From Thiobacillus sp. 0-1251 (GTDB lineage: Bacteria > Pseudomonadota > Gammaproteobacteria > Burkholderiales > Thiobacillaceae): 64,000 nt of DNA. Shown here in pieces: positions 30,081 to 35,388 of this stretch. The number at the start of each line of letters is the position of its first letter. The first letter of the stretch is position 1. The stretch covers positions 372,001 to 436,000 of the forward strand of contig MKWL01000001.1 of the NCBI GenBank assembly GCA_001899305.1, read 5' to 3'. The translations under genes and the position numbers were made by a program. The notes below the pieces were generated by a model, which was not told the origin of the DNA, did not search any database, and was given only the letters and a program-made list of their open reading frames with translations.

Positions 30081-30135
30081 TTGACTGTGACACAAGATGT
30101 CGTATGGTTGATTCAGCTGGTACACAAGATGTTGT
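30081..30135 (+). promoter_or_regulatory. nrdD promoter with two candidate NrdR boxes
   Basis: TTGACT at 30081-30086, 16-base spacer and TATGGT at 30103-30108 form a promoter. ACACAAGATGTCGT (30090-30103) lies within it and ACACAAGATGTTGT at 30122-30135; starts are 32 bp apart, three helical turns, as found for NrdR box pairs. They match the NrdR consensus in 12 and 13 of 16 positions. nrdR is encoded at 34906-35388. Confidence 0.6.
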
Positions 30136-30151
30136 TTTCGAGGAGGGCGAG

Positions 30152-32167
30152 ATGAATTCTGTAATAGCAGGTGTTCCCCGTGAAGTCATCAAACGTGACG
30201 GGCGTCGAACGATGTTCGATGCCGCGAAGATACGTTCAGCCATTTTGCGGGCCGGGCAGGCCAGCGGCGAATTCGGTGAGGCCGAGGCGGAGTTGCTGAC
30301 CGCCCAGGCGATGAAGGTGCTGACCCACAGCTTCCGCACCGCCCCGCCGGACATCGAGCGCATCCAGGACGTGGTCGAGCAGAGCCTGATCGCCGCCAAT
30401 CATCTAGTGACCGCGCGCGCCTACATCGCCTACCGCGACAGCCACAGGAAGCTGCGCGAGGACCGCAAGACCGTGGTCGACGTCGAAGCCTCGATCAACG
30501 AATACCTGTCGCGCCAGGACTGGCGCGTCAACGCCAACGCCAACCAGGGCTACAGCCTGGGCGGGCTGATTCTCAACGTGTCGGGCAAGGTGGTGGCCAA
30601 CTACTGGCTCAACCACGTCTACCCGCCCGAACTCGGCGAGGCGCATCGCGACGGCTCCATCCACATCCACGACCTCGACATGCTGGCGGGCTATTGCGCC
30701 GGCTGGTCGCTGCGCACGCTGCTGCACGAAGGTCTCAACGGCGTGCCGGGCAAAGTGGAAGCGGGCCCGCCCAAGCACATGTCGAGTGCGGTCGGCCAGA
30801 TCGTCAACTTCCTCGGCACGCTGCAGAACGAATGGGCCGGCGCGCAGGCCTTCTCGTCGTTCGACACCTACATGGCGCCGTTCATCCGCAACGATCGCAT
30901 GAGCTACGAAGCCGTCAAGCAGTGCATCCAGGAACTGATCTACAACCTCAACGTGCCGTCGCGCTGGGGTACGCAGACGCCGTTCACCAACCTCACGTTC
31001 GACTGGACCTGCCCCGAGGACCTGCGCGAACAGGTGCCCGTCATTGCCGGCGAGGAAATGCCGTTCAGCTACGGCGAGCTGCAGGTCGAGATGGACATGA
31101 TCAACCGCGCCTACATCGAGGTGATGACCACCGGCGACGCCAAGGGTCGCGTGTTCACCTTCCCCATCCCCACCTACAACATGACGCCGGACTTCCCGTG
31201 GGAATCGGAAAACGCCGAGCGCCTGTTCGCGATGACCGCGCGCTACGGCCTGCCGTATTTCCAGAACTTCATCAATTCCGAGATGAAGCCGAACCACATC
31301 CGCTCGATGTGCTGCCGCCTTCAACTCGATCTGCGCGAACTCCTGAAGCGCGGCAACGGCCTGTTCGGCTCGGCCGAGCAGACCGGCAGCGTGGGCGTGG
31401 TGACGGTCAACTGCGCGCGCCTCGGCCATGAGCATGCGAGTGACGAAGCTGCGCTGCTGCGTCGCCTCGACGCGCTGCTCGACATGGCGCGCAACGGGCT
31501 GGAAATCAAGCGCAAGGAAATCCAGCGCCTGATGGACAGCGGCCTCTTCCCCTACACCAAGCGCTATCTCGGCACGCTGCGCAACCACTTCTCGACCATC
31601 GGGGTGAACGGCATCAACGAGATGATCCGCAACTTCAGCGGCGACGACCACGACATCACCACCGAATGGGGCCACGACTTCGCCGTGCGGCTGCTCGACC
31701 ATATCCGTTCCCGCATTGCCGGCTTCCAGGAAGAAACAGGCCACCTGTACAACCTGGAGGCCACGCCGGCCGAAGGCACGACCTACCGTTTCGCGAAGGA
31801 GGATGCCAAGCGCTACCCCGGCATCCTGCAGGCGGGCACCGACGATGCGCCGTACTACACCAACTCGTCGCAGCTGCCGGTGGGGTTCACCGACGACGCC
31901 TTCGAGGCGCTGGAGCGGCAGGACGACCTGCAGCGCAAGTACACGGGCGGCACCGTGCTGCATCTCTACATGTCCGAGCACATCTCGTCAGCGGAGGCGT
32001 GCAGGAAACTGGTGCGGCGTTCGCTCGAGCGTTTCCGGCTGCCCTACATCACCATCACGCCGACTTTTTCCATCTGCCCCAAGCATGGCTACCTCGCAGG
32101 CGAGCACGAGTTCTGCCCGACATGCGACGAGGAAGCCCTGTCCCGCAAACGTGCAGTTGCTGCATAA
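30152..32167 (+). CDS. nrdD: Anaerobic (class III) ribonucleoside-triphosphate reductase, main part
   Basis: Reduces NTPs to dNTPs without oxygen. 671 aa. Seen: N-terminal ATP-cone (REVIKRDGRRTMFDAAKIRS), catalytic barrel with AGYCAGWSLRTLLHEG and MCCRLQLDLRELLKRGNGLF (active-site cysteines), and a C-terminal zinc-type end ICPKHGYLAGEHEFCPTC. The polypeptide stops at 32167 before the glycyl-radical motif, which every NrdD needs. That motif is in the next ORF, in the same frame, after TAA and 15 bases. I start at the ATG at 30152 (GAGGAGGG site) because an earlier in-frame ATG at 30104 overlaps the -10 box. Confidence 0.92.
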   Translation: MNSVIAGVPREVIKRDGRRTMFDAAKIRSAILRAGQASGEFGEAEAELLTAQAMKVLTHSFRTAPPDIERIQDVVEQSLIAANHLVTARAYIAYRDSHRKLREDRKTVVDVEASINEYLSRQDWRVNANANQGYSLGGLILNVSGKVVANYWLNHVYPPELGEAHRDGSIHIHDLDMLAGYCAGWSLRTLLHEGLNGVPGKVEAGPPKHMSSAVGQIVNFLGTLQNEWAGAQAFSSFDTYMAPFIRNDRMSYEAVKQCIQELIYNLNVPSRWGTQTPFTNLTFDWTCPEDLREQVPVIAGEEMPFSYGELQVEMDMINRAYIEVMTTGDAKGRVFTFPIPTYNMTPDFPWESENAERLFAMTARYGLPYFQNFINSEMKPNHIRSMCCRLQLDLRELLKRGNGLFGSAEQTGSVGVVTVNCARLGHEHASDEAALLRRLDALLDMARNGLEIKRKEIQRLMDSGLFPYTKRYLGTLRNHFSTIGVNGINEMIRNFSGDDHDITTEWGHDFAVRLLDHIRSRIAGFQEETGHLYNLEATPAEGTTYRFAKEDAKRYPGILQAGTDDAPYYTNSSQLPVGFTDDAFEALERQDDLQRKYTGGTVLHLYMSEHISSAEACRKLVRRSLERFRLPYITITPTFSICPKHGYLAGEHEFCPTCDEEALSRKRAVAA

Positions 32168-32182
32168 ACCAAGGAGACCGAG

Positions 32183-32371
32183 ATGAATGACATGACTGTT
32201 CCGACCCAGGCCCAGAATGTGGCAGCCCTGCCGGACGAGGAGCGCACCCGCTGCGAAGTGTGGACCCGCGTGATGGGCTATCACCGCCCGGTGACGAGCT
32301 TCAACAAGGGCAAGAAGAGCGAGCATCGCGAACGGCGCTTCTTCGTCGAAAGCCGTTGCAGGATGGGATGA
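32183..32371 (+). CDS. nrdD: Separate glycyl-radical domain of NrdD
   Basis: A 62-aa protein, MNDMTVPTQAQNVAALPDEE then TRCEVWTRVMGYHRPVTSF, which carries the glycyl-radical loop (RVMGY, the Gly being the radical site) and the downstream NKGKKSEHRERRFF tail that normally ends NrdD. It is in the same frame as nrdD, separated by one stop and 15 bases, and has its own AAGGAGA site 6 bases before the ATG. It would have to dock on NrdD like the small glycyl-radical protein GrcA does on pyruvate formate-lyase. Its stop overlaps the nrdG ATG by four bases. A rare alternative is readthrough of the TAA. Confidence 0.85.
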   Translation: MNDMTVPTQAQNVAALPDEERTRCEVWTRVMGYHRPVTSFNKGKKSEHRERRFFVESRCRMG

Positions 32372-33060
32372 CCATGCTGCGTGTCGGCGGCTTCACGCCG
32401 CTGTCCACCACCGACTGGCCCGGCATGCTGGCCGCGGTGGTGTTCTGCCAGGGCTGTCCCTGGCGCTGCGGCTATTGCCACAACCCCGATCTGATTCCCG
32501 CCCGCGGCGACAGCGAGATTCCCTGGGATGACGTTCTGGCCTTTCTGCGCCGCCGCCGGGGCCTGCTCGACGCCGTGGTGTTTTCCGGCGGCGAGCCGAC
32601 TGCGCAGGCAGGGCTGGTCGACGCTGTGCGTGAGGTGCGCGCGCTCGGATTCAAAATCGGCCTGCATACGGGGGGCATGTATGCGCAAAGACTGGCGGAG
32701 GTATTGCCGCTGGTCGACTGGGTCGGACTGGACGTGAAGGCGCCGTTTGCGGATTACGCGCGCATCACCGGCGCGGCAGGCAGCGGCGAACGTGCGCTGG
32801 CCGGTTTGCAGCAGGTGCTGGCATCCGGCGTCGATCATGAAATCCGCACCACGGTGCATCCGGCACTGCTGGGCGACACGGCCGTGATCGGCCTTGCGCA
32901 CGATCTGTCCGACCTCGGGGTGAAGCGTTACGTCATCCAGGCGTTCCGAAGCCAAGGGTGCCAAAACGACAGCCTGCGGCTGAGCGGCACGCGCGAACGG
33001 CCCTTGCAGACGGTGGGCGAGCAGATGGCCGGGCTGTTCGAGGATGTCCTGGTGCGCTGA
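32368..33060 (+). CDS. nrdG: Anaerobic ribonucleotide reductase activating enzyme
   Basis: Radical SAM enzyme that makes the glycyl radical on NrdD. 230 aa, longer than the ~155 aa of E. coli NrdG and closer to the NrdG2/pyruvate formate-lyase-activase-like type. CxxxCxxC is seen in CQGCPWRCGYCHNP, SAM-binding GGEP in VVFSGGEPTAQ, and ITGAAGSGERALAGLQQVLA, EIRTTVHPALLGD and YVIQAFRSQGCQN follow. The ATG at 32368 overlaps the stop of the glycyl-radical ORF, so the three genes form one operon under the NrdR-box promoter. Confidence 0.92.
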   Translation: MTMLRVGGFTPLSTTDWPGMLAAVVFCQGCPWRCGYCHNPDLIPARGDSEIPWDDVLAFLRRRRGLLDAVVFSGGEPTAQAGLVDAVREVRALGFKIGLHTGGMYAQRLAEVLPLVDWVGLDVKAPFADYARITGAAGSGERALAGLQQVLASGVDHEIRTTVHPALLGDTAVIGLAHDLSDLGVKRYVIQAFRSQGCQNDSLRLSGTRERPLQTVGEQMAGLFEDVLVR

Positions 33061-34905: not shown

Positions 34906-35388
34906 CTATTCGAAGAGGTCGTCCACACCCTGGGGCGGCGTGCGTTCCAGGTCCTGCAGCATCTCGCGGAAATCGTCCGGGTCCTGGAAGCTCTTGTACA
35001 CCGAGGCGAAGCGGATGTAGGCGATCTTGTCGAGCTTCTTCAGTTCGCTCATCACCAGTTCGCCGACTTCGCGCGCGGGCACTTCGCGCTCACCCAGCGT
35101 CAGCAGGCGCTGGCGAATGCGGTCGACCGCGGCGTCGGCCAGTTCGGTGGACACCGGGCGCTTGTGTAGCGCGCGGCGGAAACCTTCGCGTAGCTTGGTC
35201 TCGGAAAAGTCCTCGCGCGTGCCGTTGGACTTGACGATCTGCGGCGGCCGCAGCTCGGCGGTCTCCCAGGTGGTGAAGCGCTTGTCGCACGCGGCGCAGC
35301 GGCGGCGGCGGCGAATCGCATCGCCTGCCTCATTGACGCGGGAGTCGATGACCTGGGTATCCAGAGAACCGCAGAAGGGACACTTCAT
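34906..35388 (-). CDS. nrdR: Transcriptional repressor NrdR
   Basis: 160-aa zinc-ribbon/ATP-cone repressor of ribonucleotide reductase genes. Zinc ribbon: [17 protein letters not shown] and [19 protein letters not shown]-cone: [20 protein letters not shown] and [21 protein letters not shown]-terminal [17 protein letters not shown] is standard. The best candidate target in the window is nrdD (30081-30135). Separated from glyA by a GTGAG/CTCAC-rich spacer. Confidence 0.97.

Follow-up and report, generated by a model that had tools for sequence, protein, structure and literature searches.

The window, a stretch of 64,000 nucleotides of the Thiobacillus sp. 0-1251 genome, encodes on its forward strand a class III ribonucleotide reductase whose conserved parts are distributed over two consecutive genes, with the activase gene nrdG alongside. 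The features of the locus are as follows.

30090..30137, forward strand: putative pair of NrdR-box-like sites 5' of nrdD (30090-30105 and 30122-30137), from a consensus scan
30152..32167, forward strand: nrdD core, 671 aa, stop codon TAA at 32165-32167, without the glycyl-radical loop
31307..31318, forward strand: codons of M386-C387-C388-R389 (finger-loop cysteines), all four invariant in 38 aligned relatives
32075..32125, forward strand: predicted zinc ribbon C642-x2-H645 ... C655-x2-C658, in the core, from the 38-row alignment
32117..32164, forward strand: charged core tail after the zinc ribbon, predicted as a helix (aa 656-672) by AlphaFold2 on the read-through chain
32171..32177, forward strand: ribosome-binding site AAGGAGA of the small gene, from the sequence and a start-site control
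32183..32371, forward strand: glycyl-radical subunit gene, 62 aa, ATG to TGA, matching PF13597 positions 532-562 and phrog_4132
32252..32254, forward strand: codon of Cys24 in a C-E-V/I-W motif found in 166 of 167 split loci
32276..32278, forward strand: codon of Gly32, the presumed radical glycine (RVMGY), from conservation and alignment with Thermotoga
32368..33060, forward strand: nrdG activase, matching the NrdG2 model TIGR02495 with 211 bits (cut-off 131)

The 562 positions of the profile PF13597 are divided at the gene boundary, with positions 2-530 in the nrdD core and 532-562 in the 62-aa ORF, and both matches exceed the gathering score. The core comprises an ATP-cone (aa 11-99; PF03477), a catalytic barrel, an MCCR finger loop and a zinc ribbon, and matches NF006126 with 1130 bits (cut-off 548) and TIGR02487 above its cut-off. 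Residues M386-R389 are presumed to form the radical-cysteine loop, an assignment that follows the SCCR motif given in the available part of PMC4493059. In the 38 aligned rows, C642, H645 and C655 of the predicted zinc ribbon are invariant and C658 is nearly so. The ribbon is followed by the charged tail in split cores, whereas basal fused relatives run on directly. The NRDD profile, the radical-glycine motif, the finger-loop cysteines and an adjacent NrdG were all found, as in a class III enzyme, but with the glycine and the cysteines on two genes. A class II (B12-dependent) identity was rejected, as the best models are those of NrdD and only the ATP-cone region matches B12-dependent models, far below cut-off.

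The small ORF is in the same frame as nrdD and is separated from it by an 18-nt interval, stop included, with AAGGAGA six to seven bases ahead of its ATG at 32183. Its TGA overlaps the ATG of nrdG (ATGA, 32368-32371), and a second possible nrdG start lies at 32374. The positions that an earlier note on this DNA had given for the nrdD stop, the ribosome-binding site, the ATG and the in-frame 62-aa ORF are correct. As it described, the radical loop and the C-terminal tail are in the small ORF; one correction concerns the zinc ribbon, which lies wholly inside the long ORF. The RVMGY block aligns with the radical-loop motif of Thermotoga NrdD, and glycine occupies the Gly32 site in all of the blocks compared (182 distinct cellular, 58 distinct viral), a value of 100% that is partly by construction, the blocks having been chosen by a pattern containing G. 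In the sole split locus that lacks the C-E-V/I-W pattern, the Cys is displaced by two residues. The Cys near the radical loop was considered as a hallmark of the split form, and since some basal fused relatives have it, no role is claimed for it. The window genome has a single copy of the small subunit gene.

The two NrdR-box-like sites upstream of nrdD are 32 bp apart and carry 3 and 2 mismatches to the scan consensus. Of 163 nrdD cores, 56 have such a pair in the 300 nt ahead of them; among random stretches it occurs in 31 of 3000. An ORF on the reverse strand (34906-35388), 2-3 kb from nrdDG, was recognized by eye as a putative NrdR from its zinc ribbon and ATP-cone. Together, the NrdR-like ORF and the box-like pair suggest that the reductase genes may be under local control.

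The arrangement is widespread among relatives, 55 of 100 of which have the small gene. Among the first 50 fetched loci, a core and a small ORF were present in 47, and the two were separate in 47 of 47; the other 3 could not be judged. The full count covered 232 loci with a usable core end, from all sources and with several species per genus included, and these divide into 30 fused loci, 25 near-identical duplicates that were dropped, 9 without a small gene within 400 nt, 1 truncated locus and 167 distinct split loci. In the latter, the small gene lies in frame 0, 1 or 2 relative to nrdD in 56, 54 and 57 cases (11, 9 and 11 in the genus subset of this count), nrdD ends with TGA, TAA or TAG in 98, 46 and 23, and the gap between the two genes ranges from -143 to +200 nt, with 126 loci between 0 and 60 nt. 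The small gene starts with ATG in 165 of the 167 and is preceded by a Shine-Dalgarno-like sequence in 162, counts that are flattered by a script that took the best-scoring start per locus. The identical procedure was therefore applied to 835 random placements inside nrdD cores: an ATG with a Shine-Dalgarno match of at least 5 bases was found at 149 of the 167 split loci and at 20 of the 835 control placements. The nrdG gene follows within 400 nt of the small gene in 155 of 167 loci. A radical subunit is encoded in 137 of 138 core-positive genomes, and the one exception, G251, is a genome of 86% completeness in which the core match spans query positions 6-582 only. The small ORF is a gene in its own right.

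In three genomes the small gene and nrdG lie away from nrdD, at a distance of 9 kb (G067), on another contig (G115) and at 2.4 kb (G123). These loci bear directly on the possibility of a single chain, produced by read-through of the stop at 32165 or by frameshifting past it. The window itself would allow this, its two ORFs being in frame with an 18-nt interval that includes the stop, but the small gene occurs about equally in the three frames, also within the genus subset, so stop suppression is no general explanation. The use of all three stop codons, the wide range of gaps, the start sites far above control and the detached genes in the three genomes argue against it as well, and we consider read-through very improbable; the suppressed stop that the earlier note had left as an alternative fails as a general mechanism. 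That this strain has a sequencing error here, or a pseudogene in decay, deserves almost no credence. The short interval taken alone would fit such an origin, but the arrangement is common to all 47 judgeable loci among the first 50, complete plasmid records such as pHG1 of Cupriavidus necator H16 annotate separate genes, and the radical block is under purifying selection. Pooled pN/pS is low, 0.27 for cellular pairs and 0.23 for pairs of the viral copies described below, as computed from the first 120 of 211, with pairs that are not independent and synonymous sites near saturation. The earlier argument that the small gene's own ribosome site and its overlap with nrdG speak against mere error is thus borne out by the 167 distinct split loci, and the comparison of relatives it had proposed finds the split recurring together with the ribosome site.

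Extra copies of the small gene are present in 8 of 138 core-positive genomes, where they are redundant with the operon copy. With a further copy from a named locus, L202, and with three contributed by one genome, G314, ten orphan copies were read. Three of the ten (L253, L256, L258) lie between an endolysin gene and a spanin-like gene, that is, in prophage lysis modules; the matches are strong for the endolysin and weak to moderate (E 1.8e-7 to 5.8e-4) for the spanin. One of the ten, L202 (330-536, reverse strand) in a named alphaproteobacterial rumen bin, has an NrdR-box-like pair 93 and 62 nt upstream. Control of the orphans by FNR boxes was considered and rejected, as 1 of 10 has an FNR-like site ahead of it, a weak one, against a background of 0.70 per kb, with no excess. 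In another genome (G229), an orphan subunit (L254) is followed, some 0.1 kb further on, by a 636-aa ORF that in part matches NrdG and is radical-SAM-like, and a link of this copy to another radical enzyme is possible.

A scan of IMG/VR with the orphan copies as queries returned 168 stretches that encode a relative, of which 80 were kept. The domain is present in 80 of 80 (RVMGY in 74, RCMGY in 6), and the fetched piece contains neither nrdD nor nrdG in 79 of 80; the exception (L264) has an nrdD core of the split type. A subset of 50 records, drawn mostly from the longer of the 80 and possibly fragments themselves, was searched whole: nrdD was not found in 49 of the 50, NrdG exceeded its cut-off in none of the 50, and the one terminase family tried was present in 18 of the 50. 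Thirty proteins encoded next to viral copies were also scanned. About half had no match or matched only unnamed families, and the clear matches were to an endolysin, a terminase, a portal protein, a head-tail adaptor, a tail fibre, a tail chaperone, a DNA methyltransferase and a DnaB-like helicase. Each of the 10 scanned copies from viruses or prophages exceeds the Pfam NRDD cut-off, and all 10, like the window subunit, match phrog_4132, a family listed without function, over only columns 115-162, approximately, of its 179. No NrdR-box pair was found upstream of viral copies (0 of 59), and NrdR control of these copies was accordingly rejected. Among GenBank phages, the window subunit had no match at E 1e-3 and a viral subunit had two weak matches. 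The case for phage-borne genes is therefore built on IMG/VR contigs and prophages, and there may be mis-calls among these.

The taxonomic spread was assessed in one scan of species genomes, from which the best 80 of 585 relatives were taken as named loci: 62 are split, 15 fused and 3 undecided. Split loci are found mainly in Pseudomonadota, with single or few records in Bacteroidota (a Flavobacterium isolate), Acidobacteriota, Elusimicrobiota, Armatimonadota, Omnitrophota, Actinomycetota, Nanobdellota and candidate-radiation lineages. Many of the records outside Pseudomonadota are metagenome bins and could reflect mis-binning. A Campylobacterota plasmid carries a split locus in which the small gene overlaps both neighbours, and the Pseudomonas species among these best 80 of 585, all of them other than P. 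aeruginosa, are split. Several individual loci have features of their own. Three split nrdD loci (L110, L114, L144) adjoin denitrification-related genes, among them nitric-oxide reductase, NnrS and napA, and nosL. In a Holosporaceae bin (L167), the core is of the split type and the locus, which extends more than 2 kb beyond it, contains no radical subunit; the subunit gene is possibly detached. On a Thiothrix plasmid (L143), the nrdD core is apparently broken, matching in three pieces with no core gene annotated, and the small gene and nrdG are intact; on an Azospira plasmid (L148), the split class III genes are located between class I alpha and beta genes.

The separation is also present in public annotation. 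NCBI lists separate proteins in C. necator H16 (plasmid pHG1) and others, the small one being named nrdD, and the small protein of Paracoccus ferrooxidans is annotated as a hypothetical protein. According to the accessible part of PMC2864759, C. necator H16 requires nrdDG to denitrify completely, and the C. metallidurans nrdDG genes are listed as Rmet_5137 and Rmet_5139. Both Cupriavidus loci are split, so that the locus skipped between Rmet_5137 and Rmet_5139 is, judging from the sequence, probably the radical subunit. Siedow and colleagues, in 1999, reportedly may have named a glycine near core residue 650 of the H16 enzyme as the radical site; core residue 650 of H16 is a glycine within the zinc ribbon.

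A quick maximum-likelihood tree was computed from 133 cores (105 split, 28 fused), with alignment columns that stop before the zinc ribbon. Eight of the nine basal rows are fused. The other 124 rows form a clade (support 99) of 104 split and 20 fused cores, the latter in scattered groups. Nine changes between split and fused states are needed on the tree, of which well-supported branches force at least 4, only 30 of the 130 inner branches being strongly supported. A single clade of fused enzymes was rejected, as this constraint lowers the log-likelihood by 413 (p-AU 5.7e-61, LG+G4). The change counts give no direction, but the linkers do. In fused enzymes of a same-order genus and of a Maricaulis bin, the linker from the ribbon to the radical loop apparently contains the core tail and the N-terminal E-R-Q-P-C segment of the small protein, whereas basal fused relatives pass from the ribbon to the radical loop without such a linker. 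The simplest reading would be one old fission followed by several re-fusions. Relatives with a continuous NrdD, named by the earlier note as evidence that would count against the split, thus do exist, at 15 of the 80 named loci; they are scattered within a mostly split clade, and so do not make the stop an error.

The read-through chain was modelled by AlphaFold2 together with 37 relatives (mean pLDDT 81.5, pTM 0.77). The model shows a helix at 656-672, the final residue or so of which falls in the artificial linker, disorder at 675-690, and an ordered radical domain with block means of about 65-78. Class III reductases rank first in a Foldseek search. As a single artificial chain, the model is silent on two-chain binding, and supports the family assignment and a predicted natural break point. 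The available part of PMC11226230 describes several states of Prevotella NrdD in which the radical domain is mobile or disordered; it is conceivable that a fission set free a unit that already moved by itself.

The domain order, from the ATP-cone through the barrel, finger loop and zinc ribbon to the radical loop, is identical to that of the one-chain class III enzymes of Thermotoga maritima (4COI), Prevotella copri (8P23) and phage T4 (1H78), but the zinc ribbon and the radical loop are here on different polypeptides. We consider it highly probable that the locus encodes a two-gene class III ribonucleotide reductase with a separable radical subunit, of which the orphan and phage copies would be spare parts; its assembly, the radical transfer, the exchange and a benefit to phages are what we infer. 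The nrdD core would supply the ATP-cone, barrel, finger-loop cysteines and zinc ribbon, and the 62-aa subunit would have a ribosome site of its own for translation, with the stop/start overlap coupling it to nrdG. By analogy with known class III enzymes, the small protein would dock in the barrel at the place of the C-terminal domain of one-chain enzymes, NrdG would place the radical on Gly32, and the radical would then move to the finger-loop cysteine, in the order described for class III enzymes in the accessible part of PMC4493059, from the activase to a glycine of the C-terminal loop and on to a cysteine. In the absence of a covalent link, the radical subunit could come from another locus and could probably be replaced after oxygen damage. 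Fused relatives make up 15 of the 80 named loci and 28 of the 133 tree rows, so detachment is not needed for function.

The closest known system is GrcA (YfiD) of E. coli, likewise a small separate protein with a glycyl-radical domain. As far as PMC12338860 was available, GrcA is activated by a radical-SAM activase, hands its radical to a cysteine of the large enzyme, and is proposed to displace the damaged domain; a displacement of this type may apply to the split NrdD. The small subunit differs from GrcA in being of NrdD type, shorter (62 aa) and inside the nrdDG operon. Moreover, GrcA backs up an enzyme that keeps its own radical domain, whereas the window core has no radical loop, so the small protein would be needed for every turnover; redundancy with a radical domain of the core itself is thus absent for the operon copy. 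Phage T4 carries such a cofactor, Y06I/vs.6, for pyruvate formate-lyase (PMC1524935, in its available part), of which the phage subunits would be the NrdD counterpart. The split class II reductase NrdJa/NrdJb likewise has its catalytic subunit in two genes (accessible part of PMC9669993), and differs in its class, in its cofactor and in where it is cut. A separate NrdD radical subunit is not described in the available parts of PMC4390871, PMC9531940, PMC11226230, PMC2864759, PMC4493059, PMC9669993, PMC9176816, PMC5645315, PMC12338860 and PMC1524935, and neither is a phage copy of it; subscription journals were mostly outside this coverage, and an earlier description is possible.

The stand-alone copies bear on two further explanations. 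The split could be an ordinary fission with obligatory tight binding and no exchange, the phage copies doing something else, such as poisoning the host NrdD. Split NrdJa/NrdJb is known without a repair role (PMC9669993, in the part available), and the adjacency of nrdD, subunit and nrdG in most loci would suit co-translational assembly. Orphan and viral copies, on the other hand, keep the residues around the glycine and have low pN/pS, as expected of working carriers rather than decoys. Phage T4 also reportedly offers a working precedent for pyruvate formate-lyase (Wagner and colleagues, 2001). Tight binding without exchange is in our view unlikely, though far from negligible. The viral loci could, alternatively, be mostly host fragments mis-called as virus, as is likely for L264, whose split nrdD core points to such a fragment or a chimera; that the terminase family tried occurs in only 18 of 50 records and that no close GenBank phage match exists would agree with this. 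Against it, 49 of the 50 whole records are without nrdD and none has NrdG above cut-off, and several direct neighbours are phage structural or lysis genes, which makes large-scale mis-calling improbable. The detachable, GrcA-like radical subunit favoured by the earlier note is backed by genetics and by the stand-alone copies in prophages and viral contigs: that phage genomes carry the small piece alone suggests a replaceable part, and spare subunits would be the simplest reading of the orphan chromosomal and phage copies. The broader proposal, in which an exchangeable-subunit NrdD is present in a large clade and a phage family of about 50-70 aa (phrog_4132) supplies the host reductase in anaerobic infection, appears to us evenly poised.

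The glycyl radical is destroyed by oxygen, and one-chain enzymes then need the damaged chain to be remade or rescued. A separate small radical subunit would make this repair cheap, and would open the reaction of the activase with its substrate to study on a protein of 62 aa. Genome papers that list nrdD and nrdG with a skipped locus between them would likewise be explained. For phrog_4132, a phage protein family listed as unknown, the small subunit would provide a testable function, and the phage copies would be auxiliary genes that complement one part of a host enzyme.
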